Virus record (IMG/VR): IMGVR_UViG_3300010883_000022
Location: 1-64,000 of that record
Strand: one strand, 5' to 3'
DNA: 64,000 nucleotides
Source of the DNA: a virus
Under the pieces are notes generated by a model that had not been told where the DNA came from, did no database searches, and saw nothing but the letters and a program-made list of their open reading frames with translations. The position numbers and the translations under genes were made by a program. This document shows positions 13,419 to 53,135 of the stretch, piece after piece. The stretch's first letter is position 1. Every line of letters starts with the position of its first letter.

Positions 13419-13820
13419 TTACTGTTGCTGGATCTGGTCAACCAATATGTTGGCCGCGACAGCATCCTGATATGTTAACGACGCTTCCTTCAAAAGAGGA
13501 TCGCTTGCCATTTCATGAATGGCATTCTGCAGAGAAGAATCTGGCTGTGCATTTTCTCCATAAACAGCACGATCCAACTCTTGGCCGGCCGCGTCTAAAA
13601 ATTCATTCCGTTGCCCAGCAGACTTGGTTTGTTCCTGCCTCTGTGCAACTCTCAGCTTATCGCTCAAGTCCAACAGTTGCTGAGCTTCTTGCTCATTTTG
13701 CGGAACAACACCATAGTCTTCGGCCAGCTTATTAAAAAAGACCGGCGCATGAACATTATCGAACAGGACGCTTTGGGCCTGGTCGGGTGTCAATTCCGGC
13801 ACTTGCTGACTTTGCGACAT
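13419..13820 (-). CDS. Small helical capsid-module protein
   Basis: 133 residues from an ATG preceded by GGGAG. Almost entirely helical and Gln/Ala-rich (EQEAQQLLDLSDKLRVAQRQ), with the K-x-A type sequence DPLLKEASLTYQ near residue 110. It follows the capsid gene and its hairpin. I do not recognise it. It could be a minor capsid or internal protein. Confidence 0.65.
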   Translation of the reverse strand: MSQSQQVPELTPDQAQSVLFDNVHAPVFFNKLAEDYGVVPQNEQEAQQLLDLSDKLRVAQRQEQTKSAGQRNEFLDAAGQELDRAVYGENAQPDSSLQNAIHEMASDPLLKEASLTYQDAVAANILVDQIQQQ

Positions 13821-13860
13821 AGTGAGTATCTCCCAAATTTGTAACGCATAACAGGATTAA

Positions 13861-13884
13861 GCGGAGCCCTTGATTGGGCTCCGC
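13861..13884 (-). terminator. Hairpin downstream of major capsid gene
   Basis: Perfect 9-bp inverted repeat GCGGAGCCC / GGGCTCCGC with a 6-base loop, 12 bases after the capsid stop codon. It is not followed by a clear T-run, so it may protect the capsid mRNA 3' end or give partial termination. Confidence 0.65.
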
Positions 13885-13896
13885 CATCCCTGTTTC

Positions 13897-14829
13897 TTAC
13901 GTGAAGTTAGCGCGGGCAAGACCACTGGTGTGACCAATGGTTCCGCCTGCAGTTTCATAGGCGAAGAACTCAAGCATGTAAGCTTCCCGCTTGATGTACA
14001 TAGTCGTATCCTCAAGCAAGTAGTTCTTACCAATGAACTTGGGATCCGCGAACTGGTAAATGGTGTCGTCAGCAACAAAACCGGTTCCGCGCTTGATCGT
14101 GATGATCCAGCGACAGTTCAGCAGTTCAGCTTCCGACCAACCATTCTTCAGGGTGTCCTGGCTGAAATCACCACCAGCCTCGTCACGACCCCACTTCATG
14201 ATCTCTTTGATCGTCACGTTGTTGACCAAGATCGTGTTAACTTCCAGGTGACTGGGAGTTGACGGCATGATCTTCAACGATTCGACAACCGTGTCACGAG
14301 TGATACCGCCAACAATATTCTTATGCTGGACGACACCTGACGTGGGAGTTGCGACACCCACAGTACCGATCGCTGTATTAACAGCGGCGAGGAACTTAGA
14401 GTCCTCTTCGGCCAACATGTCCTTGATAGCGTTGTCGCTAAGGACCTGCCGAATGTCCATGACGTAGGTACGCAGTTCATCAACATCTTTGGTGAAGCGC
14501 GGGGTCACGATACGATCGAACATAACCCGGTAGCGCGGTCCGCGGATGTACAAGTTAATCGGCAAGGTTGCAAACGGGATCGAGATGGCCGCGGGGCTAT
14601 CAGGTTCCTTGTCCACAATCTTGACCGGCTTGTCGGTATCGACCTGACGATCCAGTTCGTCGTTGCTAATCTGCAACGGCGGAAGGATGCGGCGGTAAAA
14701 CCCGTCTTCCCGCATCTTCGTACGAGTAAAATCATTCACCGCATCAATAGCGGTTTTCTCCATTCCTGGAGTCGAAAGCTGCTCAAACAGAGTCTCGTTG
14801 AGCAGTTGAGCTTCTGACTTATTAGTCAT
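13897..14829 (-). CDS. Major capsid protein (HK97-fold type)
   Basis: 310 residues with an exceptional ribosome site (ACACGGAGGTTAATAAACC then ATG). Features typical of HK97-fold capsid proteins of large phages include a short N-terminal region ending GMEKTAIDAV, an extended-arm stretch (MREDGFYRRILPPLQISNDE), spine-helix sequence (VDELRTYVMDIRQVLSDNA) and a C-terminal beta segment (TTMYIKREAYMLEFFAYETAGG). It forms the icosahedral shell. The first 25-30 residues may be a propeptide cut by the maturation protease at the K-x-A sequence; this is inference. It lies downstream of the protease and scaffold-like genes, as usual, and a hairpin follows it. Confidence 0.88.
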   Translation of the reverse strand: MTNKSEAQLLNETLFEQLSTPGMEKTAIDAVNDFTRTKMREDGFYRRILPPLQISNDELDRQVDTDKPVKIVDKEPDSPAAISIPFATLPINLYIRGPRYRVMFDRIVTPRFTKDVDELRTYVMDIRQVLSDNAIKDMLAEEDSKFLAAVNTAIGTVGVATPTSGVVQHKNIVGGITRDTVVESLKIMPSTPSHLEVNTILVNNVTIKEIMKWGRDEAGGDFSQDTLKNGWSEAELLNCRWIITIKRGTGFVADDTIYQFADPKFIGKNYLLEDTTMYIKREAYMLEFFAYETAGGTIGHTSGLARANFT

Positions 14830-14850
14830 GGTTTATTAACCTCCGTGTTC
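14830..14850 (-). promoter_or_regulatory. Strong ribosome-binding region of capsid gene
   Basis: The 21 bases before the capsid ATG, containing GGAGG and AT-rich spacer, are identical to those before the next gene upstream (15463-15483). Identity beyond the Shine-Dalgarno core suggests a selected translation-initiation or regulatory element, or a recent copy. Confidence 0.7.
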
Positions 14851-14886
14851 AATTTCATTTTAAAAGTAACATGCTCAACAGGGAGC

Positions 14887-15462
14887 TTAGCTTTGTCCCG
14901 GAAGATACACAGGCCAGAATCGCAGTACGCTAATGCCATGTGAGTTCGTGTTCGTACCAGTAGAAACAACACCGCAAACCGCCTGGTCAGTCCCAGTTGC
15001 GCTTGTTGAATCAAGTTCCCACGGCACCGACAACGCAGTTCCAGCATCATCCTCGTTATTGAGGAACCCACCAATAGTCGCACTAGCGTTAGATACCGCA
15101 GCGCCAAGCAAATTGCCAGGAACATACGTCTGGGCAATGAACTCAGACGATTCCAGTTCGTACGCGCCAGTAGCAACCAAACCGGACATTGCGCCCGTAG
15201 GAGCAACCGCGGTCCAGTAGTCACCGCCAGGATTAGCGACATCAGAATCGTCACTGCTATTCAGCAGGAAGATTGCCATACCAGTATTGCTGACGCCCGA
15301 CTCATATTCGCCGACACTATTAAGATGAACAACACGACCCTGTTCGTACGGGTCAACGGTCACGTTAGCAGAAAGTTTAGCTGAATGATCAAGCGCGGCT
15401 TCGTGAAACCAGCCCTTGCACGCATCCAACGTGTGATCAAACATTTGACTAGGATTAACCAT
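14887..15462 (-). CDS. Abundant capsid-associated protein, likely head decoration
   Basis: 191 residues, Gly/Ser/Thr/Ala-rich, beta type and without Lys-rich tails (GAMSGLVATGAYELESSEF; AVCGVVSTGTNTNSHGISVL). It shares the 21-base leader of the capsid gene, which suggests similarly high production. It lies directly upstream of the capsid gene. These traits fit a decoration or cement protein that coats the shell; the sequence family itself is not recognised. Confidence 0.7.
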   Translation of the reverse strand: MVNPSQMFDHTLDACKGWFHEAALDHSAKLSANVTVDPYEQGRVVHLNSVGEYESGVSNTGMAIFLLNSSDDSDVANPGGDYWTAVAPTGAMSGLVATGAYELESSEFIAQTYVPGNLLGAAVSNASATIGGFLNNEDDAGTALSVPWELDSTSATGTDQAVCGVVSTGTNTNSHGISVLRFWPVYLPGQS

Positions 15463-15483
15463 GGTTTATTAACCTCCGTGTTC
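15463..15483 (-). promoter_or_regulatory. Strong ribosome-binding region identical to that of capsid gene
   Basis: Same 21 bases as at 14830-14850, including the GGAGG core and the spacer up to the ATG. Confidence 0.7.
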
Positions 15484-15517
15484 GGATTTTTAATTTCGGA
15501 ATAAAGTGGCCACCGCA

Positions 15518-15919
15518 TTAGTAGCCTAAAAGGGCCTCGCGATATCGACGGTCGGACTCTTTTTCGTTAGAAGTCGGAACGCCTGCAAACGGGCTGGTAA
15601 GGCTGTCATATGCGGCAGACTTAACAGTACCCGTCGGAGTACCCAACTGGCCGGCTTCCGCACCTATGCGGTGGTCGGCGACTTTCTCAAGGATTTCTAG
15701 CGCCTTGATCGGATCCCGGAGCATATCAGCCGCTGCTGACTTTTCATGCTCGTCAATTCGTTCATTACGCGCCAGCGCGTCAACTACAGCAGGGATTAAC
15801 TCAGCGTACTTCTGCTGCACGGCCTGCTTCTCAGCTAGGACCGTTTCTGCTTTATCAAGCGCAGCAGAAGACCAAGCAATCTGCTCGATGACCTTCTGTT
15901 GAAGGGTTTTATTGGACAT
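15518..15919 (-). CDS. Capsid-module helical protein
   Basis: Start set at the ATG at 15919 (MSNKTLQQKVIEQ), 9 bases after GGAGG in ACACGGAGG; an ATG that overlaps the GGAGG itself is unlikely. Product 133 residues. The first 95 residues are helical (ALDKAETVLAEKQAVQQKYAEL). The end is flexible and contains GTVKSAAYDS, a K-x-A type sequence. It is encoded between the scaffold-like and decoration-like genes. It may be a core or minor capsid protein; unrecognised. Confidence 0.65.
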   Translation of the reverse strand: MSNKTLQQKVIEQIAWSSAALDKAETVLAEKQAVQQKYAELIPAVVDALARNERIDEHEKSAAADMLRDPIKALEILEKVADHRIGAEAGQLGTPTGTVKSAAYDSLTSPFAGVPTSNEKESDRRYREALLGY

Positions 15920-15956
15920 AATTGTCATCCTCCGTGTGATCAATGTTAATGCTTAC

Positions 15957-17303
15957 TCACCCAACAAGCTCGAGTACATGAGCTTTCATTAGGTCTCGAA
16001 TTTTTCTTTCACGGTCATTTGTAGCTTCCTTAAACTGAAACTTTCCAGACCGTTTAAACGACGTCAATGCTGAAGCCAACTTAGCGCCCTCTGCACCGGC
16101 TGCCCCCAATTCCTCACCCGGAACACCGGATTCCTGCAAAGCCATTGCTAGCTGCGCTAACAACTCTTCATCAGAAACAGGCTCTGGACCAGATTCAACG
16201 AGTTGCTGAATAGCTTCTGCAATCTCAGCGTCACCGACTTGGTCGCCTCCGCCAAGTCCCCCGCCGAGTTCTCCGCCAAGTCCCCCGCCAAGTTCTCCGC
16301 CGAGCTCTTCGCCGAGTCCTCCGCCAAGTTCTCCGCCAAGTCCCCCGCCAAGTTCTTCGCCGAGTCCTCCGCCGCCTTCGCCGGCCATCTGAGCAAGCAG
16401 TGCAGCTTCGTCACCACCTTCTTCCATGCCGGACGATTCGTCGCCGAACCCATCGTGATCTTCACCTTCAGCTTCACCGCCAAAAGCAGGATCTTCAAGG
16501 GGATGCTCGCCAATCTTTTCAGCTTCATGCGCCAACGTATGCAGATAACTTCCCACCAAATCCGCATCGTATGATGCATCTTTGATCGTCTGTTCAATGG
16601 TAGCTGCCGATCGCTCTTCTTCGGACATCTTTTCCATTCCAAGAACAGAAGCCAACTGGTACCCCGCGTCAGCAGCTTGCTGCGCTGCGGGAGCTACTGC
16701 AGCCTGCTTTACGGCAGGGGGCGCCACTTGCTGCTGATACTGGGGAGCTTCAACTAGCGGCGCCTGGGCTTTTTTTTGAATGTGTACCTCGCCAAAACCA
16801 TAACCATTTGCGAAGTCAGCCAAAATATCGTTGCCTAGATTCAAGGCAGCTGTTTTAGCTTGCCAGAAATTCGCGCCTGTGCACGCGCTTTCCAATGATC
16901 CAAACTTTTCACCATCTTTAGTGTCAGCAGGATGCGCTGTACCCGGATCATCTTTGTCACCCTTAAAGTCGTTCTCGACCGAGGGGTCTTCTCCGGTGGC
17001 GCTTTGCTGCGTGCCCATATTGAGCTGCCGGTCATCTTGAGCCGGTCCCGCATCGCCTTCGCTAAGGTCGTCTGGTGATTTACCGGGAATGTCATTTTTG
17101 ACATCAGCTGAATTCTCAGCAGACCGGGCCCCTTCCGAGGCATCAGCAGTACTGTCGTCTACTTTAGCTGACGGGTGCGAAGACTCTCCTGCGTACCCAC
17201 CAGCTTCCGTATTAGCTGCTGCTGTTTTTTCAGCGGCAACTTCTTTCATGAAATCGTTCAACTGCTCAAAATATTGAGCGGTTTGGACTGAAGAACTGGT
17301 CAT
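15957..17303 (-). CDS. Acidic scaffold/prohead-core-like protein with Gly-Glu-Leu repeat
   Basis: 448 residues from an ATG preceded by AAAGGAG. Very acidic, Ala/Gly/Glu/Asp-rich and low in aromatic residues, as expected for a prohead core or scaffold. Residues about 308-353 are a low-complexity tandem repeat of GGGLGEEL/GGGLGGEL units, visible in DNA as short repeats. K-x-A sequences occur at AAEKTAAAN, WQAKTAALN and GAKLASALTS. The C-terminus is basic and helical (RERKIRDLMKAHVLELVG), like capsid-binding ends of scaffolds. It lies between the protease and capsid genes, the normal place of a scaffold. Confidence 0.72.
   Translation of the reverse strand: MTSSSVQTAQYFEQLNDFMKEVAAEKTAAANTEAGGYAGESSHPSAKVDDSTADASEGARSAENSADVKNDIPGKSPDDLSEGDAGPAQDDRQLNMGTQQSATGEDPSVENDFKGDKDDPGTAHPADTKDGEKFGSLESACTGANFWQAKTAALNLGNDILADFANGYGFGEVHIQKKAQAPLVEAPQYQQQVAPPAVKQAAVAPAAQQAADAGYQLASVLGMEKMSEEERSAATIEQTIKDASYDADLVGSYLHTLAHEAEKIGEHPLEDPAFGGEAEGEDHDGFGDESSGMEEGGDEAALLAQMAGEGGGGLGEELGGGLGGELGGGLGEELGGELGGGLGGELGGGLGGGDQVGDAEIAEAIQQLVESGPEPVSDEELLAQLAMALQESGVPGEELGAAGAEGAKLASALTSFKRSGKFQFKEATNDRERKIRDLMKAHVLELVG
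16248..16380 (-). repeat. Short tandem repeats encoding Gly-Glu-Leu-rich segment
   Basis: About 130 bases built from near-identical units of 12 or 24 bases that read GGGLGGEL or GGGLGEEL. The unit number is likely to vary between related genomes. Confidence 0.8.
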
Positions 17304-17350
17304 ATTTAGTCACTCCTTTGACGGCAAATTGCTCGTGTCCTGTGCTATAC

Positions 17351-18793
17351 CTAATTTTGCAGGATACTAAGCGTTAATGTCAACGATAATTCCGCGCTTT
17401 GCGGTTCCATTTGAGTAAATGCGGCAACTTTATATAACGCATACTGCCGCGCAAGTTCTTCGCCGGGACCAGTAAAGGCTGCTGCCTTTTCCACACCCGG
17501 CAAAGGATTAACTCCTCTAAGTGTTGCCTTACGTATTCTACTCTCTATATGATTTGATTTCAAAGAGTAGTCTGCTGCCAACGTGTTAGCAAGCTTACGA
17601 TACTCTCCCATGTGTGTAGTTTCAGTGCTGATGAACGGATTGTTGCGAGCTGCTGTTTCAAAACTGCCATCCGTCAACATGCGATCATAAACACCAAAAA
17701 GATGTTGCTTAACTTGTGGTGCAACCGATGCAGCCTTTTCTGTATCTCCTTGTACCATAACAAGAAATTCTTCCACAGGTAATACAATTCCTTGTTCTGC
17801 CAGTGCACGAGTCATTTGAGCAACTTTAGTCGTCGTTACAAATTGCGCTCCAGGAATATTCACGGAAGTCCGTACTTCTGGTGAAAATGCCACAGATTTG
17901 TGCGCCCATTCTGAAACGCGCCCTTCTGCATCACTTAATTGCTGCGCCAGTTTAAGTTGCGCAATTACAGCAGAAGAAAGCTTCCCATCAAGAGAAAAAT
18001 CTAACGGCATGGACAACTGCATATTCTCAGCAATTTCCGCTCCAGAAATAGTTGTCCCGTCCGAAGCCGCCTTCTCTAGTTGCCCCATTGTATAGGCAAT
18101 ACGATCAGCTGGCCTAAATACTTTGGAAATATCAAAAAATGTTGGGTCAGGATTATCTGCGTGAAGAATATGCCCACTCTCTAACACCGTACCAATTTTA
18201 GATGCAAGTCCGCCGTGCTTGCAAAGAGCGCCCGTACAATACTCACTACGATTGCGCGCTTTGTTACCACAGCCACTACAAACATCGAACGGTACGCGAC
18301 AAGCCATACTAACAGCAATATCATCACCATTAGCAAGTTTTTCCATCTCTTCGTCTGCAAGCAACCCGCCATTTCGTTTCGCCGCTTCCTTAGTGCTGTT
18401 AAGCGCAACAAGGAGCTCAATCCGCTTCATATCCGGATTGTAATTCGAAGCTTTAATAAGTCCGAAGCTTTTGTCCGGGTTCTTATTCTTATGGTTACGA
18501 TACCAACGCGCATGCTTTACGAACGTATTATGATCTCGCTTACACGTTGCTTCTTTAAATCCATCGCCATTACGATTCGGCCCGTAGAACTCCGTTGAAC
18601 CAACCGCAATGAGGTGTACAGGAATATCCCCCTCATCTAATTTGACGTTCTGGATCTCATCGGCAAACCGGTGACCTGCTCGTTTAATAAACGAACTTAA
18701 GTCGCTGCCTTTAAGGCCTTGGCTAGAAACTTTAATCAGTTGCGCAATAGGCTCGTCAAACGGCCATGCGCCTGGTGTGATGATTTTTAACAT
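17351..18793 (-). CDS. Capsid maturation protease with Cys-rich insert
   Basis: 480 residues. The N-terminal half fits a prohead protease of the herpesvirus-assemblin-like kind. The stretch STEFYGPNRNGDGF is followed by the helix HNTFVKHARWYRNHKN, which supplies a candidate catalytic His. GDDIAVSMACRVPFDV supplies a candidate catalytic Ser. Directly after it, CSGCGNKA and SEYCTGALCKH could bind zinc. The C-terminal 230 residues are helical with many K-x-A sequences (LEKAASDG, TEKAASVAP, VEKAAAFTG, LYKVAAFTQ), which may be self-processing sites. It precedes the scaffold and capsid genes. The assignment rests on motifs and gene order. Confidence 0.72.
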   Translation of the reverse strand: MLKIITPGAWPFDEPIAQLIKVSSQGLKGSDLSSFIKRAGHRFADEIQNVKLDEGDIPVHLIAVGSTEFYGPNRNGDGFKEATCKRDHNTFVKHARWYRNHKNKNPDKSFGLIKASNYNPDMKRIELLVALNSTKEAAKRNGGLLADEEMEKLANGDDIAVSMACRVPFDVCSGCGNKARNRSEYCTGALCKHGGLASKIGTVLESGHILHADNPDPTFFDISKVFRPADRIAYTMGQLEKAASDGTTISGAEIAENMQLSMPLDFSLDGKLSSAVIAQLKLAQQLSDAEGRVSEWAHKSVAFSPEVRTSVNIPGAQFVTTTKVAQMTRALAEQGIVLPVEEFLVMVQGDTEKAASVAPQVKQHLFGVYDRMLTDGSFETAARNNPFISTETTHMGEYRKLANTLAADYSLKSNHIESRIRKATLRGVNPLPGVEKAAAFTGPGEELARQYALYKVAAFTQMEPQSAELSLTLTLSILQN

Positions 18794-18795
18794 GG

Positions 18796-20277
18796 TTAGT
18801 GTTTGCCCTCCGTACGATCTGATTCTGCAAGCTCCGCGAGAAGACCAGCGAACAACGGCAGATGAGCAAGCCGGCGCAGCGCCGGGTTACGCCCAAACTT
18901 CCCGCGCAATGAGTTTTTCGGTACCTCGATGTCGCCGGCGCCGCCGCGGCCTTTTATACTGGTAGCCACGTCGGATATAACACCAGGGGGCGTTCGTTGG
19001 GCGCCGGGCAGCTTACGTCGTAGATTCTGCAACCACCTCGGGCCGCTCATTGGTACGCCGCTGCTTAAGTTCGCAAGCGTATTCGGGGCGAACTGCATGC
19101 CGCCAGGAACAGGTTTAACTGTGGTATCGCCTAGAAGTTCAACGAGGTCGCGCTGTCTATATGCCGTCCCGTCGATCTGCACAGTCCCGCCATTTATCAA
19201 GTGCTGCAAATCACCCTGACTCGCATCCCGCACCCAATTCTTTACTCCCTGCGTTCTTGCTGCGGTCGCGTCAACCGGGATACGACCTGGCGCCACTGCC
19301 TCTACAGCATCAACCCCCGGTCGGCCGGGTCGGCTGGCCGAACCAGGATCATCTATAACTTGGTTATATGTTCCATCAGGCTGAAGGATGGTGCCGTCTT
19401 TATATGTAGGTGGCCTGGCTGGCACCGCATGGACCTCAGGGACCGCGGCCGCCGCTGCCGTGCCGGTGCCCGGGGCATCCATCATCGGCACGTCCATGCC
19501 GGCAACTTGATGGCGAACCGCTTCAGGCAGCGCGGTTCTTACAGCCTGAGTCCTAGCCTTGATAGCCGGTTTGGTCGCATTTTTGAGATCAACCCGATTG
19601 CCACGTCCTTCAATCAGGGATAACCCACCGTGACCTAACCCTGATGTCACGATGCCCGCTGCCGCCGGGCCACGGAGGATACCGTTTTCGTCGTAAGATG
19701 CTGGCAGGAGCGTATCCAGTACTTTCCCGCCGGGATATATCAAACCACTTGCAACGTTTGTGGCAGCATTGACGGCGTTATGAATCAAGCCCTTGTCGGC
19801 TCCTTCGGCATTCGCGAGCGCCTCCGCCTGGGCGACTGCGTTGGCGGCTTCCACTTGCGCCGCCGTACCCTCACCTGTAGTGCCTCCGTGTGGCAGTTGG
19901 CCGCCACCTGCAATGCTCAAAGCATTACTAACTCCACCCACCTGATCGTTCAGGTACGCGCCGCCAGCACCCAGTCCACCACCGGTTAATGCGCCCCACA
20001 GGACATTCGAGTAATCCCGATTCTTCTTCTTTTTCCGCTCTTCATTAAGCGCTGCAAGAAGACCGCCAGTACCCGCACCAGCAAGACCATAGGCCAATGG
20101 CTTCGATGTTGTGAGACCTGTTTTAAAGTCTTCCCAACTGTAAGCTTGCTTAGCGAAAGCAGTGTTCAATGTGTTTACCAACGTTGGCGACGCCTTACGC
20201 ATTGCACGAATCTGATAAATGTATGCAGTAGCTTCTTTCGGCGTACCGAGAAGCACATGCGCAGGAATATTACTCAT
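18796..20277 (-). CDS. Large glycine-zipper virion protein (putative ejection protein)
   Basis: Start at the ATG at 20277 (MSNIPAHVLLGTP), 8 bases after AAGGAG. Product 493 residues. Residues about 58-110 contain two glycine-zipper hydrophobic segments (LAYGLAGAGTGGLLAAL and WGALTGGGLGAGGAYL) separated by a basic loop ERKKKKNR, able to form a membrane hairpin. AFAKQAYSW before them is a K-x-A sequence. The rest is Ala/Pro/Gly-rich. The motif VPGGMQFAPN also has a counterpart (VPGGPQFRPS) in the neighbouring upstream protein. Location in the head module suggests an internal or ejected protein that inserts into the host membrane; this is inference. Confidence 0.68.
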   Translation of the reverse strand: MSNIPAHVLLGTPKEATAYIYQIRAMRKASPTLVNTLNTAFAKQAYSWEDFKTGLTTSKPLAYGLAGAGTGGLLAALNEERKKKKNRDYSNVLWGALTGGGLGAGGAYLNDQVGGVSNALSIAGGGQLPHGGTTGEGTAAQVEAANAVAQAEALANAEGADKGLIHNAVNAATNVASGLIYPGGKVLDTLLPASYDENGILRGPAAAGIVTSGLGHGGLSLIEGRGNRVDLKNATKPAIKARTQAVRTALPEAVRHQVAGMDVPMMDAPGTGTAAAAAVPEVHAVPARPPTYKDGTILQPDGTYNQVIDDPGSASRPGRPGVDAVEAVAPGRIPVDATAARTQGVKNWVRDASQGDLQHLINGGTVQIDGTAYRQRDLVELLGDTTVKPVPGGMQFAPNTLANLSSGVPMSGPRWLQNLRRKLPGAQRTPPGVISDVATSIKGRGGAGDIEVPKNSLRGKFGRNPALRRLAHLPLFAGLLAELAESDRTEGKH

Positions 20278-20289
20278 CACCCCAGCTCC

Positions 20290-24108: not shown

Positions 24109-24109
24109 T

Positions 24110-24807: not shown

Positions 24808-24809
24808 AA

Positions 24810-26818: not shown

Positions 26819-26825
26819 GCAACAC

Positions 26826-43946: not shown

Positions 43947-44888
43947 TTAACCCCACAACGAACCGCCATAATCAGGCAGTTTACGCGGTGGGAAACCATC
44001 TACACTAGAAAAGACCCACGTACCCCGAGCCTTAATCATTTGTTCAACAGTACGCTTCTTCACCCAAAAACTACCTTCAGGCTGGTCAAAAGAGCGGGGG
44101 CCGCCGTTCCAATGCCCCCAACTATTCTGCACCAATATCCCAGGACCGCCACTTTGTTTCGTGTCGTTGCAAGCAATGAAGGTCATTGCGTGGTTCCACC
44201 CGCCCTTCAATTTAGCGTACCCGTCGGCATCCCGCCGAGACGAGAACCCGATACCACTACAGACTGTCATCGCGTAGCCATTAGCAAGCGCGTCCCTGGC
44301 CTCTTCCCAGGATGTCACCAGAGAAACAGTGCGCACCTGATGCTTCTGCCCCTCCGTACTAACTTCCGAAGGAACACCCCTGCGCCCCCACTTATCCCCA
44401 GTAGCGCTGTCGTATACCGAGAAATCAACAAACCCATAGTCTTTGCGCAGAAGGATGCCGCCCTCATCATGCACAAATCGCGCCGCCGCTGAACAGGACA
44501 TGCCCTGCCCGCCGTGGCCTCGCGCACCATAAATAGCCTCAGTGGCGCCCCTGCAGATAAACTCCTCGGGCTCGTTATCAACATCGATCTCTACAGCACG
44601 AGTAACATCAACCGCATTACGCGTTGCGTGGCTTACACAATCACCGGTTGTCTGGCTTTCTGCGGGGCCAAACCCCGCATCAAACTTTACTAAGGATTTG
44701 AACGGTAAAGAGATCTTTCCTTTGCCACTTTCTTCAAGTGCGTGCGCTGCAGCGCCAAAAACAGGATGCGGAAGCTCACCAAGCAATCGAGCCACATCCT
44801 CAGGATTGCACTTAGAACCAACAAAACCTTCGGAATAAGCCTTCCAAAGATTGCGCGGCGTCGGATTTACAGGAAATTCTAAAGACAT
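43947..44888 (-). CDS. Papain-like cysteine protease (C1A type)
   Basis: 313 residues. The catalytic set of papain-like enzymes is visible: Gln79 and Cys84 in QTTGDCVSH, His233 in GGWNHAMTF, and Asn255 in QNSWGHW. There is no signal peptide and no long propeptide, so it may be active in the cytoplasm or packaged. The segment KKRTVEQMIKARGTWVFSSV near the end is also typical. This family is uncommon in phages. It may process virion or host proteins. It sits between the small envelope-type genes and the glycan genes. Confidence 0.9.
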   Translation of the reverse strand: MSLEFPVNPTPRNLWKAYSEGFVGSKCNPEDVARLLGELPHPVFGAAAHALEESGKGKISLPFKSLVKFDAGFGPAESQTTGDCVSHATRNAVDVTRAVEIDVDNEPEEFICRGATEAIYGARGHGGQGMSCSAAARFVHDEGGILLRKDYGFVDFSVYDSATGDKWGRRGVPSEVSTEGQKHQVRTVSLVTSWEEARDALANGYAMTVCSGIGFSSRRDADGYAKLKGGWNHAMTFIACNDTKQSGGPGILVQNSWGHWNGGPRSFDQPEGSFWVKKRTVEQMIKARGTWVFSSVDGFPPRKLPDYGGSLWG

Positions 44889-44907: not shown

Positions 44908-45378
44908 TTACTTTACCACGTCTATAGTCATATTCTGAACATTACTAGTAACCCGCGTAACCCGGGTTACTCCCATACGAAAAAGAGTTGCTTCAAGCCA
45001 GGGAAAACTCAGGGAAATATGATGAAAATTGCCGGGATAATCCTGCCCCCCGTTAATGATCTTTGACAATCTTTCCCAACTTATCTCACCTGACTTTGCT
45101 TGATGAAAATACGTCGTACATATCTTCTCTATATCCGGAGTCTTGATAAGCAAACGGCCGCCCGGTCGTAAAACTCGCAGCCACTCGGCTAATGCTTTCT
45201 CATACTCATAAATACTGAAATGCTCAATAATGTCGAGCGCTACAACTTCATCCACACTCTCGTCAGCATAATCCAGATTCCGCACATCTCCGCGCACAAC
45301 ACCGGGAATGTCCCGCTCATCTATGTTGATATACCCTTCCTTGATGTCAGGGCCGCAGCCCACGTTAAGCTTAAGCAT
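44908..45378 (-). CDS. SAM-dependent methyltransferase
   Basis: 156 residues, a compact class I methyltransferase. Motif I is LNVGCGPDIKEGYINID; SVDEVVALDIIEHF is motif II and LRVLRPGGRLLIKTP is motif III. Length is short for the class, ending after the seventh strand. Similar small enzymes accompany glycan synthesis genes. The substrate may be a sugar or nucleotide sugar; this is inference from the cluster. Confidence 0.85.
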   Translation of the reverse strand: MLKLNVGCGPDIKEGYINIDERDIPGVVRGDVRNLDYADESVDEVVALDIIEHFSIYEYEKALAEWLRVLRPGGRLLIKTPDIEKICTTYFHQAKSGEISWERLSKIINGGQDYPGNFHHISLSFPWLEATLFRMGVTRVTRVTSNVQNMTIDVVK

Positions 45379-45380
45379 GC

Positions 45381-46040
45381 TTACAATCCCCCCAAGTACT
45401 GATCTCCGGGGATCTCCTTATGCGGTTGCCAGGTGCTATCGCCCCGTCTCCAACCTATATGTAACGTAGTTCCCGGCAAAACGTAAAAAGAAAAAGCGCT
45501 ATCAAGACGAGCCATAGCCCCGATAATGTGCCAATCATATTGCTGATTTCGCGGTAGTGGGCGTAATTTCTGCCAATCTTCAGTGCGCATCACAGCTGTA
45601 CCAGCAGTGCATTTCTTCTTAATGATCCACTCACGACCATGCACTGTAGTGCGCCCGACCTCTGCATGGTCTGTACTGTTATGACCTTTAGCTAGAAAAC
45701 ACGATGGGTTCTCTTTGAGCATTCTGATGTAAGTGCTAAGCGGCTCTAAATACATGAAATCATGGTCGGTAGTAAGGATGTACTTATACAACTCATCGAC
45801 GTTATCAGGGATGGCGTCTTGATACCCGCCGCCAATATTTCTATTGGTGTCGAAAAGGGTTTTCTCCACACCTTCTATGTTATTGATAACAGAAACTGTC
45901 TCAGCATTTGATCCGTTATCAATAATATGAATGTCTGCCGTAATAACATCCTCAGCAATGCGCGCCTTTAATGACTCCACCGTCTGCACTAGAAAGTCCG
46001 GGCGATTCCAGGAGATGACGTAGATACCTAAATCCTTCAC
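45381..46040 (-). CDS. GT2-like glycosyltransferase, short
   Basis: 219 residues from a GTG at 46040 that overlaps the upstream stop (GTGA). The N-terminus IYVISWNRPDFLVQTVESLK and DIHIIDNGSNAETV are typical of GT-A enzymes; LTTDHDFMYLEPL supplies the metal-binding acidic residues. The C-terminal acceptor region includes WHIIGAMARLDSAFSFYVLP. It follows the formyltransferase gene, so it may transfer the formamido sugar. This is inference. Confidence 0.83.
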   Translation of the reverse strand: MKDLGIYVISWNRPDFLVQTVESLKARIAEDVITADIHIIDNGSNAETVSVINNIEGVEKTLFDTNRNIGGGYQDAIPDNVDELYKYILTTDHDFMYLEPLSTYIRMLKENPSCFLAKGHNSTDHAEVGRTTVHGREWIIKKKCTAGTAVMRTEDWQKLRPLPRNQQYDWHIIGAMARLDSAFSFYVLPGTTLHIGWRRGDSTWQPHKEIPGDQYLGGL

Positions 46041-46624
46041 GGTAAAGTCCTATCCACCAAGTGAGCTTGAAACGCTTCAAACCGCTCACAAAGTTCAAAA
46101 GGACCCCTATGATACATGCGCGGTGGATACGCATAACAATTACTAATCTGATCATCTGCCAACAATCGCACTAGCTCTATACTACTGTGAACAAACCCCG
46201 GAAGGATGCAACTAAGCCGCCCATACAGATCAAACGAGGTATCAGCTGCGAAGACAGGGTAGGTCGTCTTACTAATGATGGGGCCTGCGTCAAAATTCTC
46301 CACCATCTTGTGAAAAGTGATGCCCTGCTCCCTATCCCCGTTAACAAGCGTGTGCGCCAAGATATCCAGGCCCCCATAATCAGGAAGAAGGCCGGTGTGC
46401 ACGTTGTACGCGTTCTCGATGTCAACCAGTTTGCGATCCCACTGAATTGACAACTTGATGTCGTGCTCAACATCAAAACTATCTAATACAGGTAACGAGA
46501 TGTTCCCCGGGAATGCCGGACTTCTAGACGGGACATAGCCCACCAAGTTATAGAAGCCCGCGAGGTGCTCAACCACAAGTTCGGTGAGATAAGATGATCC
46601 CAGGATGATTATTTTGTAATCCAT
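46037..46624 (-). CDS. Sugar N-formyltransferase-like protein
   Basis: Start at the ATG at 46624 (MDYKIIILGSSYLTELV) with GGAG at 7 bases. Product 195 residues. The catalytic triad of the formyltransferase fold is present: Asn74 and His76 in NVHTGLLPDYGG, and Asp112 in ENFDAGPI, with the usual spacing. GITFHKMVENFDAGPIIS is a strong family match. It lacks the C-terminal OB domain of methionyl-tRNA formyltransferase. With the adjacent aminotransferase this fits N-formylation of an amino sugar, using N10-formyltetrahydrofolate. Confidence 0.88.
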   Translation of the reverse strand: MDYKIIILGSSYLTELVVEHLAGFYNLVGYVPSRSPAFPGNISLPVLDSFDVEHDIKLSIQWDRKLVDIENAYNVHTGLLPDYGGLDILAHTLVNGDREQGITFHKMVENFDAGPIISKTTYPVFAADTSFDLYGRLSCILPGFVHSSIELVRLLADDQISNCYAYPPRMYHRGPFELCERFEAFQAHLVDRTLP

Positions 46625-46640
46625 TACTAACTCCACGCAA

Positions 46641-47765
46641 CTACCAACCCTCTTTTATACAGTCAACGATATGCTGACGATCCTCGTCGCTTACCCACCA
46701 ACCACAAGGAATACAAATCATGTCCTGACTAAGTATATCCATACTTGGCAGCGCCGCACGAAACTCTTTAAGACAATGATGCTTATCGTTTCGATCGTGC
46801 ACCTGACTAACACCAATGCCGCACCCCTTCATCTTTTTAACGAAGCCCGGACGGCCGCTCACGCGCAGTGTATACACCCAGTACGATGATGACCTATCTG
46901 AACTAGTTTCCAGCAGCTGAACACCAGGAGTACCAGCCAACTGCTCATCGAAAAACTGCCCGTTACTGCGATGATGTGCCACCAACTCAGAAACATGCGG
47001 AAAGTTACACAAACCAATAGAGGCGTTCACATCATTCATATGATACTTGAACCCCCACTCCTCGATATTCTGCTCGCAGCGGAAATCAAGGCTTCGAGTC
47101 CTATCCAACCCGTACCACCGCAACCTTTTTGCGCGCTGATGCTCTTCATAGCTCGGTGACACAAGTAAGCCACCGTCTACCGTCGTGAAGTGCTTGATAG
47201 CCTGGAAGCTGAAGCAGCACGCATTCCCATGATTGCCCAGCAGCTTATCCTTGTACGTTGCGCCCCACGCATGTGCACAGTCTTCTATGACTGTAGGATA
47301 AAACCCGTAAAGATCCTGACAACGAATCTGCAGTTCCTTAAGTGCATCCAAATCACAGGGGTACCCACCCCAGTGCACAACCATGATAGCCTTGGTCTTA
47401 GGACTCAGCTTCCTAGCCAAATCATTTAAACACATATTACAAGTGCCCGGATCAACGTCGACCCAGCGAAGGCGCGCCCCTGTTGCAAGGATCGCAAAGT
47501 TGGTGGCTGTGCAGGTCAACGGAGTAGTTAGCACCTCGTCGTCCGGCCCCAGGTCACACATGTGCGCAGCAAGCGTTAACGCCGATGTGCCGCTGTTAAG
47601 CGTATTCAAATACGGCGTACCCAGGTAATCAGACAACGTAACTTCAAACTCTTCTACCCGAGGCCCCTGCCCAATATATCCGGACAAAAGCGTATCAGAG
47701 ACTGCGCTCGAAACGTCCTCCGACATAAAAACTTTGAACAAGGGAATATTCTTTTCCGACGCCAC
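46641..47765 (-). CDS. DegT/DnrJ/EryC1-type sugar aminotransferase
   Basis: 374 residues from a GTG at 47765 preceded by GGGAGGGG. PLP-binding signs: LNSGTSALTLAAHM near 56-69, IEDCAHAWGA (Asp162), and FSFQAIKHFTTVDGG with Lys191 as the Schiff-base lysine. The start IPLFKVFMSEDVSSAVSDTL is also typical. These enzymes convert a keto sugar nucleotide to an amino sugar with glutamate or glutamine. Paired with the formyltransferase it would make a formamido sugar. The dehydratase that supplies the keto sugar is not in the window and may come from the host. Confidence 0.92.
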   Translation of the reverse strand: MASEKNIPLFKVFMSEDVSSAVSDTLLSGYIGQGPRVEEFEVTLSDYLGTPYLNTLNSGTSALTLAAHMCDLGPDDEVLTTPLTCTATNFAILATGARLRWVDVDPGTCNMCLNDLARKLSPKTKAIMVVHWGGYPCDLDALKELQIRCQDLYGFYPTVIEDCAHAWGATYKDKLLGNHGNACCFSFQAIKHFTTVDGGLLVSPSYEEHQRAKRLRWYGLDRTRSLDFRCEQNIEEWGFKYHMNDVNASIGLCNFPHVSELVAHHRSNGQFFDEQLAGTPGVQLLETSSDRSSSYWVYTLRVSGRPGFVKKMKGCGIGVSQVHDRNDKHHCLKEFRAALPSMDILSQDMICIPCGWWVSDEDRQHIVDCIKEGW

Positions 47766-47767
47766 AA

Positions 47768-48655
47768 CTACGCCCCTCCCAAGATATGAAAACCACCGGA
47801 ATCCCGCTCACAAGTAGATGCCGGCGCAAGTCCCAACAACTGCCCGCGTTCAAGTTGAACCTGATGACCCATGATTGCGCCTATGGGTAATTCAGCCGGA
47901 GCAAACACAAGTGGGCGCGGTATAAGAGAGTTATCCAAGTAGATAATGTTCTTCTCAGCCGTTGTCGGATTCCTCGTACAATGCATAAAAGAAATACAAT
48001 AATCAGCAGACATGCTGCGGATACTCAGTCCTTTATTAGCAAAAGATCTTAAGTATCCCACCTGTGTCGCCGGGCCCTCCCGCATAACATCTGGCGGTAG
48101 ATGGAAAGAACCACCGTACTTGTTAAATAGGTCAACGTTAATAAGCCCAATAGAGCAAGCAGCATGCGGTCCCCACTTAGAAGGATCCAACCAATGTCCA
48201 ACACAGATTAAAACTGATTCCTTATCTACATCAGTTGAATAGCTGTAGGACAACCATTCCTTGTCAAAGCCACGCATGACTGGAAGATAGTCATCTTCAA
48301 AAAGAAATGCGAAGTTAATACCTTCACAATGTTGCTGAAGCGCGAGATTCCACCCACCGTAAGACCAGTGCGCGGGATTTTGCTTACTAAAAACAACGGT
48401 CGGGATGCCCGTTTCCTGCTCAAAAGCAGCAGCCTTATCCTCCAAGAGAAGGAAGTGCTCTTCGTGGCCCGGGTCTAGACTGCAAACAAGGACTACCTTG
48501 TCCAGACAAGTGGCATATCTACGAAGAGCCTCGAGATACGTATCCGCGTGGCAACGTGCATGACTGTGATTAACACGATTGTGCGCGCCATCATATGACT
48601 CTGGCCTACCAAAATAGACCGCACAAATATACGCCACACGGTTTCCTTGCCACAT
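47768..48655 (-). CDS. Putative glycosyltransferase
   Basis: 295 residues. YICAVYFGRPESYDGAHN at the start and FAFLFEDDYLPVMRGFD (an acidic metal-binding set) are GT-A-like. AHWSYGGWNLALQQHCEGIN fits the region before the metal site. No signal or membrane segment. Belongs to the glycan cluster by place. The sugar and acceptor are unknown. Confidence 0.75.
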   Translation of the reverse strand: MWQGNRVAYICAVYFGRPESYDGAHNRVNHSHARCHADTYLEALRRYATCLDKVVLVCSLDPGHEEHFLLLEDKAAAFEQETGIPTVVFSKQNPAHWSYGGWNLALQQHCEGINFAFLFEDDYLPVMRGFDKEWLSYSYSTDVDKESVLICVGHWLDPSKWGPHAACSIGLINVDLFNKYGGSFHLPPDVMREGPATQVGYLRSFANKGLSIRSMSADYCISFMHCTRNPTTAEKNIIYLDNSLIPRPLVFAPAELPIGAIMGHQVQLERGQLLGLAPASTCERDSGGFHILGGA

Positions 48656-48657
48656 AC

Positions 48658-49830: not shown

Positions 49831-51024
49831 TTAAAAAATTGCGCGAGCTGCTGCACTAAGCAACCCACCCCATAAACCTACTTGCTGTAGTTTCTTTTGT
49901 CCTTTTGAGTTAAGGCCCGCCAGGCCTCCCGCAACCTTACCGGCAATAATACCAGAAAGCGCGCCAGATCCAGCGCCCCAGGCTATTCTTGCAATATCCA
50001 TGGGGGATACCCAACTTGACTTTCTAGCCGCTGCTGCGCCACTTACCATCCCCGCCATAGCACCAACTGCCGGAGGAGGCGTATACATAGGAGCATAGCG
50101 AGAACCGTAGGGATCTCGCGTTCCAAACGAATTAGGTCGCTGTATCGCGTGGCTAATCACAGGATTGCCCACTGCATCCAACGGAGAATGCACCTCAAAC
50201 ATGCTTTTATTCAATTGCCCAATAAACTGCGGTGCGTTGATCGTAGGGCGGAACATGGAACCAACGCCCCCAATCATTGCCATCTTATCAAAGAACTTTT
50301 CAACATCACCGTCAGCCGAGTCTGCAGATGCAGTACGAACAGACCTTCCCGGATCCCGCGGTCTGTTGTACTTACCCCAATAGTTACCTCCGTGCGCATC
50401 CTGTTTGCCCTTGGCAATCCATAAAGGCAAAGCCGCTCCCGCAGCCCCGCCAGCCATCGCCAACCCAGGCGCCCACCAGTCCGACTCTTCATCATCGAAA
50501 TACTCAGGAGCAAGTGCTTTAAGCGGCTTCCGAACAAGCCAGCTAAGTCCTGTACCAAGCCCGTAGCCCGCCAACCCACCAAGCGCAGCTCCCGTGAGTG
50601 CGCCAGTGGCCGTATTATGGCCCCCGATAAGCTTCCCGGGCGCATCCCAAATCTTTTTTGGAATACCAGCTACATCACTGATCATCATCGGCTTCTTAAC
50701 TTCTGCGCCCGTCTTCAAATAAACCCAGCCCTCGGGGTCTTCCGGCGCTTCCGAAGAAACATGAACAGACGCAATCGTGTCCATACATGCGAGCTTCTCC
50801 CATCTCCGATGATCAAAGTCTTTGTTATCCTTAACAACCCAAAGCTCATTACGTAGCGGGGCCAATAGGGCATGGCCCGCTCCCTCTGGGAAGCGAGCCG
50901 TTGCCACTTTGATTAAAACAGCCGCAGGGGTACCAGCCTTAACATACTCTGCCACCCGCGCCGGCACCTGCTGCCAGTGATGCCTGTCAGCTGCTGCCTC
51001 CAATGAACCACGGATATCTTCCAT
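49831..51024 (-). CDS. Glycine-zipper multi-segment virion protein
   Basis: Start at the ATG at 51024 (MEDIRGSLEAAADRHH). Product about 397 residues. A folded N-terminal region (about 1-110) is followed by Gly-rich hydrophobic segments: ATGALTGAALGGLAGYGLGT, WAPGLAMAGGAAGAALPLW, VGAMAGMVSGAAAA and WGAGSGALSGIIAGKVAGG. VEKFFDKMAMIGG is a K-x-A sequence. The pattern matches the other glycine-zipper proteins of this phage, here encoded next to lysis-like genes. Suggested role is membrane insertion during DNA ejection; inference. Confidence 0.68.
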   Translation of the reverse strand: MEDIRGSLEAAADRHHWQQVPARVAEYVKAGTPAAVLIKVATARFPEGAGHALLAPLRNELWVVKDNKDFDHRRWEKLACMDTIASVHVSSEAPEDPEGWVYLKTGAEVKKPMMISDVAGIPKKIWDAPGKLIGGHNTATGALTGAALGGLAGYGLGTGLSWLVRKPLKALAPEYFDDEESDWWAPGLAMAGGAAGAALPLWIAKGKQDAHGGNYWGKYNRPRDPGRSVRTASADSADGDVEKFFDKMAMIGGVGSMFRPTINAPQFIGQLNKSMFEVHSPLDAVGNPVISHAIQRPNSFGTRDPYGSRYAPMYTPPPAVGAMAGMVSGAAAARKSSWVSPMDIARIAWGAGSGALSGIIAGKVAGGLAGLNSKGQKKLQQVGLWGGLLSAAARAIF

Positions 51025-51031
51025 ATCTGAA

Positions 51032-52015
51032 TTACTTCCTATCCACGGGAAGTGGAACAAGCTCTAGTTTCGGAGAGCTAGGCTTCATGTTGATAGTCCT
51101 AATCCTATACGGAAACTTCATGGGAGTAAGTGTAATTCCCTTACTTCCATCTTTACCGCCCACAAAGTTAGTACCCACGTCCTCGATCGGCATGGCCTTC
51201 AACTTTTCTTCTGACGGCATCTTAACCGCGGGATCCAGCGCCCAAGAAACACCGGCACGCGCTGCCCAGTCACGCATACGACGCGCAGGAACAATAAGAT
51301 TGAACCCCTCGCCAGCGCCTCGGACCAACATCCCGACGTAACGACCATCTTCCAGGTAGACACCCCCACCACTTGAGCCAGGAAATGCCGTTACCGTAGT
51401 CTGGTCGTAAACCGTCTTGCCGATAAGTCTGCCATGTTGACTCATTATGCCTGTCGTCATGGAATTGCTTCCCTGCTGACCGAGTAACGAGCCTACGTGA
51501 AGGAGGCGAGTGCCCAGCGTAGGAATAGACTTATCCAGGTAAAAACGCGCGGTCGTCTTGATGAAGCCCTTCTTACGAACACGCAAGAGAGCCAGGTCCT
51601 CGCCGTGGTCAGCATTTGAATAACGGATCACTTCCGCATCCATTTCAAGCCGCCCAACAGTGCGCCCCTCGTCAATCAACGTCTTGACGACTTTAGCGTC
51701 CTTAAACTCCACAACAGTGCGCGGAGTACCTGTCTTAGGGTCAACAACTGAACGAGTAGTGCGCAAGCCATCGACTACGTGCGCTGCTGTCCAGATATAG
51801 GTGATATTATCACGATTAAACGCAACACCCGAGCCCTCAGAGCGGTCAGCGCGAATCGTGACTGAGATATCCTGTAGATAATCAGGAATACCGTCCGTAG
51901 CCTCGACTTCTGCCGCGCTGGCAATACAACAACTACCAGGAATAGACGGAAGAAGTGTGGCCGATAAGCCAATAGCTAAAAAAAATGCCAATACAGTTGA
52001 TTTGAGAAAGTTCAT
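51032..52015 (-). CDS. Secreted trypsin-like serine protease
   Basis: 327 residues. An N-terminal signal (STVLAFFLAIGLSATLLP) ends near SAAEV. The chymotrypsin-fold triad is visible: His79 in TAAHVVDG, Asp140 in HGEDLALLR, and Ser215 in FPGSSGGGVYL. No PDZ domain is seen; the C-terminal 90 residues are unrecognised. The signal peptide predicts a periplasmic or extracellular location. A phage protease in the envelope could degrade host proteins or mature an exported phage protein. Preceded by the ParB-like gene. Confidence 0.88.
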   Translation of the reverse strand: MNFLKSTVLAFFLAIGLSATLLPSIPGSCCIASAAEVEATDGIPDYLQDISVTIRADRSEGSGVAFNRDNITYIWTAAHVVDGLRTTRSVVDPKTGTPRTVVEFKDAKVVKTLIDEGRTVGRLEMDAEVIRYSNADHGEDLALLRVRKKGFIKTTARFYLDKSIPTLGTRLLHVGSLLGQQGSNSMTTGIMSQHGRLIGKTVYDQTTVTAFPGSSGGGVYLEDGRYVGMLVRGAGEGFNLIVPARRMRDWAARAGVSWALDPAVKMPSEEKLKAMPIEDVGTNFVGGKDGSKGITLTPMKFPYRIRTINMKPSSPKLELVPLPVDRK

Positions 52016-52046
52016 CCTTGAATTCTCCTTTAACTTCCATGTTATG

Positions 52047-53135
52047 TTACGTAGTTCGAGCAGGCTTTCCTTGCCGCCATCTCATCGCATTAGCCCACTC
52101 ATCCATATTAGGTTGTTCTGCATGAACAGCAAACCTATTAGACGACGACGGAGCATCCGGTACCGAATACTGCATCCCAGATGGTTTATGCAACCAAGTA
52201 GACTCATTGCCTGTACTAGAGTGTAACTCAAATTCATGCGGATTACGACGCATGACATCATAGAACACACCCCCCATACCCTGATCCCACGATGCACCAG
52301 GGCCTCCTTGTGGATTATACCCCGCATTAAAGTTCGGCTGACCGACTGGGCCAGATGTCTGCTCGCCCCACGGGGAATCTACTGCTGCTGTAGGCTGGTT
52401 TTGCGCTGCAGCGCCCCAAGCACGGTTGCGCGAGTCTACGCCCTCTCGGTGCGCGATCGCAGCCTGTATGTTCCTAAACTGTGTAGCGTGATCTCTTTCC
52501 TCTCCCTTGCGCTTCATCCCACGCCCTGCCCAACTCTTAAGCGTAGAACCAACATCACCCTTCCAGAAAGAACCCTCGCTTGGGCGTGTAAGCGCTGTGT
52601 TAGGTAACTCATTAGCCCACTCGCCTACACTCTCATATTCCCCGAAGAAGCCCTCGGCGGGCGTGTTGGCTGTGAACGAGCGCATAGTGGGATTACCGCG
52701 CGGAGTAAAAACCCCGCCCTGGAGGGCCGCCGCCCTCTTAAGCAACCCAGGAAGATCAAGGATGATGTCGCGATCCAGAGCCTGCTTCACTGCTTCAATA
52801 TCTTCTGGTAAAGCAGTTACAGCTTGAACCTCTTCTTCCCCCTCGTCTTGTAACTTAGCAACACGATGGCGCCCATCCCACAGAGTACCCGCTTCATCAA
52901 CGATGACCGGAAACTTTGTGTCAGCATCTGCATAACGCTTCTTTTGAAACCCAGTGTTACGAGAGCGATTAATCTTGGGGAGCGAGATCTTGCGTGCCTC
53001 TCTGTCCTTGAGCCGCTCTATAAGCGCAAGTATGTCATACGACGTATCTCCACGTGTGGTTGTATGCGTGCGTGTATGCCCAGCCTGCTTAAGCAACCCA
53101 GGAAGATCGAGGATGATATCGCGTTCTATACTCAT
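52047..53135 (-). CDS. ParB-like domain protein with duplicated leader
   Basis: 362 residues, starting at an ATG that overlaps the upstream stop (ATGA). ERDIILDLPGLLKQAG at the N-terminus is repeated as DRDIILDLPGLLKRA near residue 120. Between them is a ParB/sulfiredoxin-like segment (FPVIVDEAGTLWDGRHRVAK), whose GRHR resembles the ParB nucleotide-binding motif. The C-terminal 200 residues are Gly/Pro/Asn-rich, with no recognised domain. The repeated leader resembles the one in the glycine-zipper protein at 39.0 kb. The domain could bind DNA or CTP; presence in virions is a guess based on the leader. Confidence 0.72.
   Translation of the reverse strand: MSIERDIILDLPGLLKQAGHTRTHTTTRGDTSYDILALIERLKDREARKISLPKINRSRNTGFQKKRYADADTKFPVIVDEAGTLWDGRHRVAKLQDEGEEEVQAVTALPEDIEAVKQALDRDIILDLPGLLKRAAALQGGVFTPRGNPTMRSFTANTPAEGFFGEYESVGEWANELPNTALTRPSEGSFWKGDVGSTLKSWAGRGMKRKGEERDHATQFRNIQAAIAHREGVDSRNRAWGAAAQNQPTAAVDSPWGEQTSGPVGQPNFNAGYNPQGGPGASWDQGMGGVFYDVMRRNPHEFELHSSTGNESTWLHKPSGMQYSVPDAPSSSNRFAVHAEQPNMDEWANAMRWRQGKPARTT
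52738..53123 (-). repeat. 35-bp direct repeat around ParB-like domain
   Basis: Copies at 52738-52772 and 53089-53123, identical except at about two bases, 351 bp apart (117 codons, in frame). They encode RDIILDLPGLLK. The layout suggests that two genes with the same leader became joined, or that a domain was inserted behind a copied leader. Confidence 0.88.

Follow-up and report, generated by a model that had tools for sequence, protein, structure and literature searches.

A K-x-A motif confined to head-type proteins of an uncultured large phage suggests the recognition site of its prohead protease

The window, meaning the whole stretch of DNA analysed here (64,000 nucleotides; positions 1 to 64,000 of IMG/VR record IMGVR_UViG_3300010883_000022), is part of a 65,250-base virus record and represents a fragment of a large phage whose minus strand holds almost all genes. 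Our reading of these genes suggests a contractile-tailed phage. This study concerns a short recurrent sequence, Lys-any residue-Ala (K-x-A), in presumed head proteins of the phage and its relation to the predicted prohead protease encoded in the same module. A preliminary description of positions 13419 to 53135 (hereafter the range) had read "hydrophobic or Glu, then K-x-A" as a likely cleavage site of the capsid maturation protease. The central genes and sites are given below, where hxKxA (h being I, L, V, M, F, W, Y or A) is the motif in a refined form and expected counts come from within-protein shuffles, which preserve amino-acid composition.

13419-13820, minus strand: head protein, 133 amino acids (aa), with a conserved K31-L-A33
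13722-13730, minus strand: K31-L-A33 of this protein; motif in 31 of 35 homologs
13897-14829, minus strand: major capsid protein, 310 aa; residues 1-27 are a predicted propeptide
14749-14757, minus strand: capsid K25-T-A27; predicted cut after A27
15518-15943, minus strand: small core-like protein, 141 aa; hxKxA 83 against 22 expected in relatives
15957-17303, minus strand: scaffold-like acidic Gly-rich protein, 448 aa, between the protease and capsid genes
17351-18793, minus strand: predicted prohead protease, 480 aa, T4 gp21-like fold
18677-18685, minus strand: protease K37-R-A39, N-terminal edge of the catalytic domain
18065-18073, minus strand: protease K241-A-A243, within the disordered linker (227-254) that follows the catalytic domain
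17729-17737, minus strand: protease K353-A-A355, helical C-terminal half; profile score above threshold
17480-17488, minus strand: protease K436-A-A438; profile score above threshold
17423-17431, minus strand: protease K455-V-A457; motif in 23 of 31 homologs
20290-22869, minus strand: internal/core-like protein, 859 aa; hxKxA 443 against 106 expected in relatives
22759-22767, minus strand: K35-A-A37 of this protein, found in all 50 homologs, with 44% identity at the middle residue
22648-22656, minus strand: K72-A-A74 of this protein; K and A columns 1.00 in 50 homologs
28090-30468, minus strand: 792-aa head protein, remotely homologous to Arash gp218 (phmmer E 1.3e-7)

The protease, scaffold-like and capsid genes adjoin in this order (17351-18793, 15957-17303, 13897-14829), and gp222-226 of Salmonella phage Arash show the same order. 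The capsid protein is 30% identical to the annotated Arash capsid protein, and its profile matches the capsid structure of phage G (gp27, 6wkk) with an E of 1.2e-8. A low-confidence AlphaFold model (mean pLDDT 53.5) resembled HK97-fold capsids with Z 6.6-8.7; given this low confidence, membership of the HK97 fold follows mainly from the profile match, and the model was rejected for placing the propeptide.

Sequence searches of Pfam and PDB gave no useful match for the product of 17351-18793. Its AlphaFold model (29 sequences, mean pLDDT 81, pTM 0.49) consists of a confident catalytic domain and a helical C-terminal domain, with a disordered linker at residues 227-254 (pLDDT <50). The best structural match was T4 gp21 (5jbl; Z 9.5, 141 residues aligned, rmsd 3.2), followed by herpesvirus proteases with Z up to 5.8, and Foldseek also placed 5jbl first (prob 0.99, E 0.07) with no PDB match at E 0.001. 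Two homologs carry matching annotations, that of Rhodococcus phage E3 as a prohead protease and that of Gordonia phage Pupper as a capsid maturation protease. All 32 aligned proteases have S162, H60 and H101, which are candidate catalytic residues; a C172-x-x-C175...C186 cluster is likewise invariant in the family. By its fold and gene order, the product is a likely gp21-like prohead protease with predicted proteolytic activity.

All eleven peptides quoted in the preliminary description were recovered in minus-strand proteins of the window. Against 1000 shuffles, which were used for all window counts, the motif as first worded (hydrophobic or Glu before K-x-A) occurred 64 times in the 36 non-glycan proteins of the range, with 29.3 expected and no shuffle reaching the observed number. 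In the seven head proteins, a set drawn up after the per-family enrichment had been seen and also used for the motif shape and held-out profiles below, there were 36 occurrences against 8.8 (no shuffle as high). The enrichment claimed for glycine-zipper proteins was present in a weaker form (12 against 6.0 in six proteins of this type; reached by 13 of 1000 shuffles), and the presumed rarity in glycan enzymes was borne out in 11 enzymes assigned by eye from sequence (1 against 6.6; reached by 999 of 1000). The 16 remaining proteins, outside the range, had 6 occurrences against 8.6 expected (874 of 1000 shuffles). With hxKxA, the six glycine-zipper-type proteins had 16 against 5.3, and the 15 other proteins of the range 11 against 11.7; the excess is therefore not range-wide. 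As to the form of the motif, the hydrophobic residue lies in most cases two positions before K, the position directly before K being mostly E, V, I or T.

We then turned to relatives of the phage. The capsid query against viral contigs gave 109 relatives in one scan (64-98% identity), and the relatives analysed are about 80 environmental contigs, 80 of these 109 having been kept; a second viral scan with the capsid alignment profile gave 326 relatives, of which the best 80 were nearly the same contigs. Per-family counts excluded families with <4 sequences and homologs shorter than half of the window protein, and near-identical homologs were thinned. The frequency of hxKxA was 3.1-4.9 times expectation in six head families (named by gene start 13419, 15518, 15957, 17351, 20290 and 28090) and 2.4 times in the capsid family. 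Ten further families had relatives, among them tail-side and decoration-like ones; nine of these stood at 0.13-1.05 times expectation, and the tenth, the glycosyltransferase-like 11597, at 1.27 times. In absolute terms, the scaffold-like 15957 family had 283 copies against 91 expected and the 28090 family 155 against 44. Copies of the motif are found at the capsid N-terminus, on either side of the catalytic domain in the protease, and in proteins of scaffold-like and internal type; no excess was seen in tail, portal, terminase or decoration-like proteins. Relatives with as little as 30% capsid identity share the motif.

To examine the motif without presupposing it, all residue pairs at spacings 1 to 8 (3,200 patterns) were scored against shuffles. 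An earlier scan on the seven-family set was partly circular because the families had been picked after the enrichment was known, and the scan was repeated with sets chosen by position only and by homology only. In the ten families at 13419-30468, chosen by position, K-x-A ranked first of 3,200 patterns (1987 against 769.4, z 43.9), and the second-ranked pair, E-K (z 18.7), belongs to the same motif. Capsid and protease alone, the homology-defined set, also placed K-x-A first (462 against 151.1), and in six tail-side families it was depleted (rank 3,041; 98 against 135.0). As a positive control, nine T4 head proteins (a set that includes gp68, tabulated as not cleaved in the part of PMC9026906 consulted, and lacks Alt) placed I-x-E, part of the known site, first (26 against 12.0) and L-x-E at rank 25, and did not pick out K-x-A (26 against 20.8). 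Glu-specific sites of the X-E type did not stand out in our head families: in the earlier scan, K-x-A ranked first and no spacing-2 pair ending in E was found within the 30 top pairs.

Conservation points in the same direction. K-x-A pairs with both columns at least 90% conserved around a middle column below 90% occur in five of seven head families (8 sites) and in none of eight others, and any other conserved pair recurs in at most three of the 15 families. In the capsid, all 18 nonredundant sequences have K25 and A27, the residue between the two being 44% and the preceding segment 48% identical (the N-terminal alignment is displayed for 66 distinct sequences); at the capsid N-terminus, GLVKEA is the version of Arash and GLTKEA that of Vibrio phage D69. 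In the protease, K37 and A39 are invariant in 32 of 32 sequences, including those of Arash and D69 (31 of 31 in the homolog counts), and K241 and A243 are kept in 97% and 100% of homologs; the family averages 9.0 K-x-A sites per protein. The full motif at K72-A-A74 of 20290-22869, hydrophobic residue included, is present in 44 of 50 homologs, and K108 and A110 of 15518-15943 are at least 90% conserved. Sites of the scaffold-like family, 5.6 per protein (2-11), drift over 75 alignment columns. A separate F-x-K-x-A copy at protease residues 91-95, inside the catalytic domain, is near-conserved and missing in Arash and D69; by analogy with some herpesvirus proteases it is possibly an internal self-inactivating site.

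The flanks of 1,898 K-x-A sites in the head families gave a characteristic shape. Counted from K, F, L, M or I is favoured at -2; E, V, I or T at -1, where G, A, P and R are avoided; Q, T, V or L at +1, where G, D, P and N are avoided; A, S or E at +3; and D, A or F at +4. A five-flank profile trained on six families separated the K-x-A sites of the held-out seventh from tail K-x-A with an AUC (area under the curve) of 0.77-0.95. Alternating preferences at -2, 0 and +2, followed by small residues, would be the footprint expected of P5, P3, P1 and P1' pockets of a protease. The extended site would be [F/L/M/I]-[E/V/I/T]-K-[Q/T/V]-A|[A/S/E]-[D/A/F], where | marks the likely scissile bond, with a hydrophobic P5, Lys at P3, Ala at P1 and a small P1'. 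By analogy, we infer a cut after A because P1 is the last fixed residue in the T4 and SPN3US sites, SPN3US also having a small P1'. A genome-wide scan with a strict P1' filter found 36, 43 and 37 sites against 19.0, 15.3 and 18.8 expected in three relatives (G001, G002 and G003); the filter was dropped as too strict, since the capsid site, with Ile at P1', did not pass it. Close to the large terminase gene of these relatives, outside the window, lies the gene of a protein with 22 copies of the motif against 4.5 expected (bare K-x-A 41 against 10.4 over the three homologs); this protein is predicted from its sequence to be an internal head protein and substrate:

G001:C1:10005-11249, G002:C1:32855-34024 and G003:C1:33458-34675: terminase-neighbour protein

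Portals and terminases of Arash and the three relatives had no excess (portal 3 against 4.3; terminase 2 against 3.3).

Remote cultivated relatives of the capsid, at about 30% identity, are Arash and the Vibrio phages D69, D148 and D181, with phage G remoter still. Arash proteins (numbering to gp251) were counted as 56 virion-annotated, 6 portal, polymerase or fibre and 79 other proteins, the remainder being mostly short hypothetical proteins. Within gp218-gp226, nine genes, K-x-A again ranked first (46 against 21.1), with L-x-K second. Sites are carried by gp220 (9), gp223 (8), gp242 (8), gp225 (6), the protease gp222 (6), gp218 (5) and the capsid N-terminus. The profile hit 26 of 34 K-x-A sites in six head proteins compared with 16 of 79 in non-structural proteins, and the non-structural proteins had no excess (37 against 39.1). 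Protease homologs were also found in Bacillus phage G (gp19), Mycobacterium phage Ava3 (gp98), Rhodococcus phage E3 (gp77) and Gordonia phage Pupper (gp94). Their catalytic domains are 28-36% identical to that of Arash, gp19 being at 36%, and K-x-A stands directly behind the protease domain in all four (LEKVAS, NNKTAG, KRKQAY and KKYAEC). In gp19, K-x-A occurs 8 times against 2.5, and LVKTA, LEKVA and LLKIA flank its domain; for phage G the counts cover 19 proteins, all encoded in the first 45 kb. In the protease of Ava3 there are 18 against 8.0. For [KR]-x-A the actinophage proteases were above expectation (for example E3, 20 against 10.9), a weak signal since the reverse pattern was also above it (19 against 11.3). 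Virus Rctr197k (L210), a phage of 197 kb whose enrichment culture is labelled DAMO/AAA, encodes at 8794-11790 a remote homolog of the protease; its domain contains additional CxxC pairs.

The glycine-zipper proteins and one further carrier are listed here (hxKxA counts against expectation):

18796-20280, minus strand: glycine-zipper protein; FAKQA at 42-46; 2 against 1.27
38959-40056, minus strand: glycine-zipper protein; LIKHA (twice) and FVKLA; 5 against 0.98
40440-40922, minus strand: glycine-zipper protein; LVKQA at 51-55, right before a hydrophobic stretch; 1 against 0.48
49831-51060, minus strand: glycine-zipper protein; LIKVA, WEKLA and FDKMA; 4 against 1.59
52047-53135, minus strand: protein with LLKQA, AVKQA and LLKRA; 3 against 0.57

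The counts in 40440-40922 and 18796-20280 are not significant individually. In 38959-40056, ERLYIDIAPDLIKHAQDMRK is a tandem duplicate (residues about 14-34 and 45-65), and RDIILDLPGLLK is present twice in 52047-53135 (residues about 5 and 122). The two repeats resemble each other as hydrophobic-D-[IL]-x-x-L-[LI]-K-x-A, with K-x-A at the end, and may represent a targeting element. Between 40440-40922 and its counterpart at G001:C1:76381-76497, only the N-terminal segment before K-x-A is common (residues 1-39; 46% over 39 residues, with EAFK.GFL.RC.EE in both); going by the sequences, it resembles what a modular head-targeting propeptide would show. The gene at 51032-52015, which adjoins a glycine-zipper gene, encodes a Trypsin_2 domain (E 5.2e-15) behind a signal-peptide-like start.

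In all probability, K-x-A forms the core of the site that the prohead protease of this phage (17351-18793) recognises, and the enzyme would cut after the alanine. The computable predictions of the reading offered in the preliminary description agree with the counts, so that this reading is supported. The motif, its limitation to head-type proteins, its conservation and the protease fold are computed results; cleavage itself, its exact bond and the order of events are inferred. Inside the closed prohead, the protease would free itself after A39 and A243. From the capsid protein it would remove the propeptide of 27 residues, it would fragment the scaffold-like and core proteins, each at several sites, and it would trim the glycine-zipper proteins, which are presumably packaged inside the head and probably ejected.

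Several observations weigh against this proposal. Bare K-x-A is not enriched over all 56 virion-annotated Arash proteins (124 against 113.7, rank 552), its excess being limited to the head group; hxKxA occurs 78 times in the 56 proteins against 47.4. The head-region genes 14887-15462 and 22844-23830 show no hxKxA excess in relatives, and some motif copies lie in folded regions, such as protease residues 93-95 within the catalytic domain. Bixzunavirus-type phages no longer keep the hydrophobic residue, and clear enrichment is limited there to the protease; in Ava3 the hydrophobic position is not kept and the other head-region proteins show no clear enrichment. The phage G capsid protein lacks K-x-A despite a homologous protease with sites. 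A phage G capsid without propeptide fits the 6wkk sequence, which starts at Met1, and the alignment of the Ava3 capsid to it only from residue 36, the deposited sequence being no proof of the observed N-terminus.

The alternative that survives best, although we judge it improbable, is that K-x-A is a docking or capsid-targeting motif by which the shell or scaffold holds internal proteins uncut. The glycine-zipper proteins carry one or few copies, as expected of a targeting tag, and the duplicated segments in 38959-40056 and 52047-53135 resemble repeated binding elements. However, the capsid protein needs no tag for joining itself, yet its K-x-A is invariant, and the many protease sites have their conserved members at domain edges, one of them in a disordered linker. 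Small residues are moreover favoured directly after A, like the P1' of known sites. Still less likely is cleavage of these sites by another enzyme, either the trypsin-like protein of 51032-52015, whose Trypsin_2 domain would suit a motif containing lysine, or a host protease: a trypsin-like cut after K would leave the A two residues on unfixed, no protein is richer in the motif, relative to expectation, than the prohead protease, and the motif brackets its catalytic domain, in phage G too, as self-processing predicts. That the excess is a by-product of lysine/alanine-rich helical composition is hardly credible even though several carriers are rich in A, E and K, as the shuffles preserve composition, the reversed AxKxh is near 1 in most families (exceptions: capsid 3.2, 14887 2.5, 27687 1.85), the i,i+2 spacing is not helical, and single K and A columns are invariant around a variable middle residue.

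Processing by the phage's own prohead protease at a short motif is a known kind of system, and the specificity predicted here differs from those of T4, phiKZ and SPN3US. In the sections of PMC9026906 consulted, T4 has L/I-X-E sites in capsid, scaffold, core and internal proteins, cut after Glu, and the phiKZ site is S/A-X-E; the consulted part of PMC10052503 describes for SPN3US gp245 an A-X-E site, many propeptide sites, self-removal of a C-terminal propeptide and a small P1' (Ser). Our system shares with T4 the protease fold (Z 9.5), a short core motif that the same scan recovers in both, and the classes of carrier. It differs in the predicted Ala at P1, Lys at P3 and hydrophobic P5, where T4 has Glu at P1, and in the invariant Cys cluster and helical C-terminal domain of the enzyme. 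Multiple propeptide sites, C-terminal self-removal and a small P1' are predicted likenesses to the giant phages, in which P1 is again Glu; unlike the SPN3US portal, which is cleaved, portals of this lineage lack a K-x-A excess. In G, Ava3, E3 and Pupper, the difference is a hydrophobic P5 that is weak or lost in the actinophages.

Herpesvirus assemblin cuts after Ala, like the site proposed here, and has a hydrophobic P3, unlike the Lys proposed here; its fold match is weak. In herpesvirus UL26 (assemblin), according to the consulted part of PMC4498786, a release site lies between the protease domain and the C-terminal scaffold part, and the linker position of K241-A-A243 is similar.

There is about an even chance that K-x-A cut after Ala is an old specificity, distinct from the Glu at P1 of T4, phiKZ and SPN3US, which the RNA-polymerase-encoding phages like Arash, phage G and the actinophages of Bixzunavirus type all inherited, and that it marks their packaged and processed proteins. 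A search of literature available in part, covering titles and abstract openings beyond the papers cited, found no account of a K-x-A head-protease site, whether in general or for Arash, Bxz1, phage G or phage E3, which does not show its absence in print. Head-protease sites have been mapped in few large tailed phages, and Glu precedes the cut for all three enzymes of T4, phiKZ and SPN3US; a Lys/Ala specificity would widen the known range, and the lineage concerned, with genomes of about 200 kb, is frequent in metagenomes. If the proposal is true, sequence alone reveals the packaged, processed head proteins of uncultured giant phages, glycine-zipper membrane proteins included. The motif would be a marker for internal or ejected head proteins that are hard to annotate, and it predicts exact mature N-termini; the cultivated relative Arash makes the lineage readily testable.

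The window also encodes RNA polymerase beta and beta' subunits, and neither of these genes has a K-x-A excess:

34489-38943: RNA polymerase gene with Rpb2 and Rpb1 domains; beta fused to the N-terminal part of beta'
30566-32440: C-terminal part of beta', assigned by reading

Membership of the mReC phages, for which encoding both subunits is one criterion, was considered and is not claimed: despite the polymerase subunits, capsid 13897-14829 has no Pfam match at E 0.01 and hence none to PF07068, which all mReC capsids match according to the part of Weinheimer and Aylward 2020 consulted. The product of 43947-44888 reads as papain-type cysteine peptidase-like (QTTGDCVSHA, GGWNHAM, LVQNSWG), with no Pfam match at E 0.01. 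Genes resembling glycosyltransferases, aminotransferases, formyltransferases and methyltransferases by eye occupy 44908-48655 and 53326-60233, without motif excess. Between the two polymerase genes lie genes resembling those of an iron-sulfur carrier (32465-32851) and an exonuclease (32855-33427), together with a gene for a Gly/Pro-rich protein.

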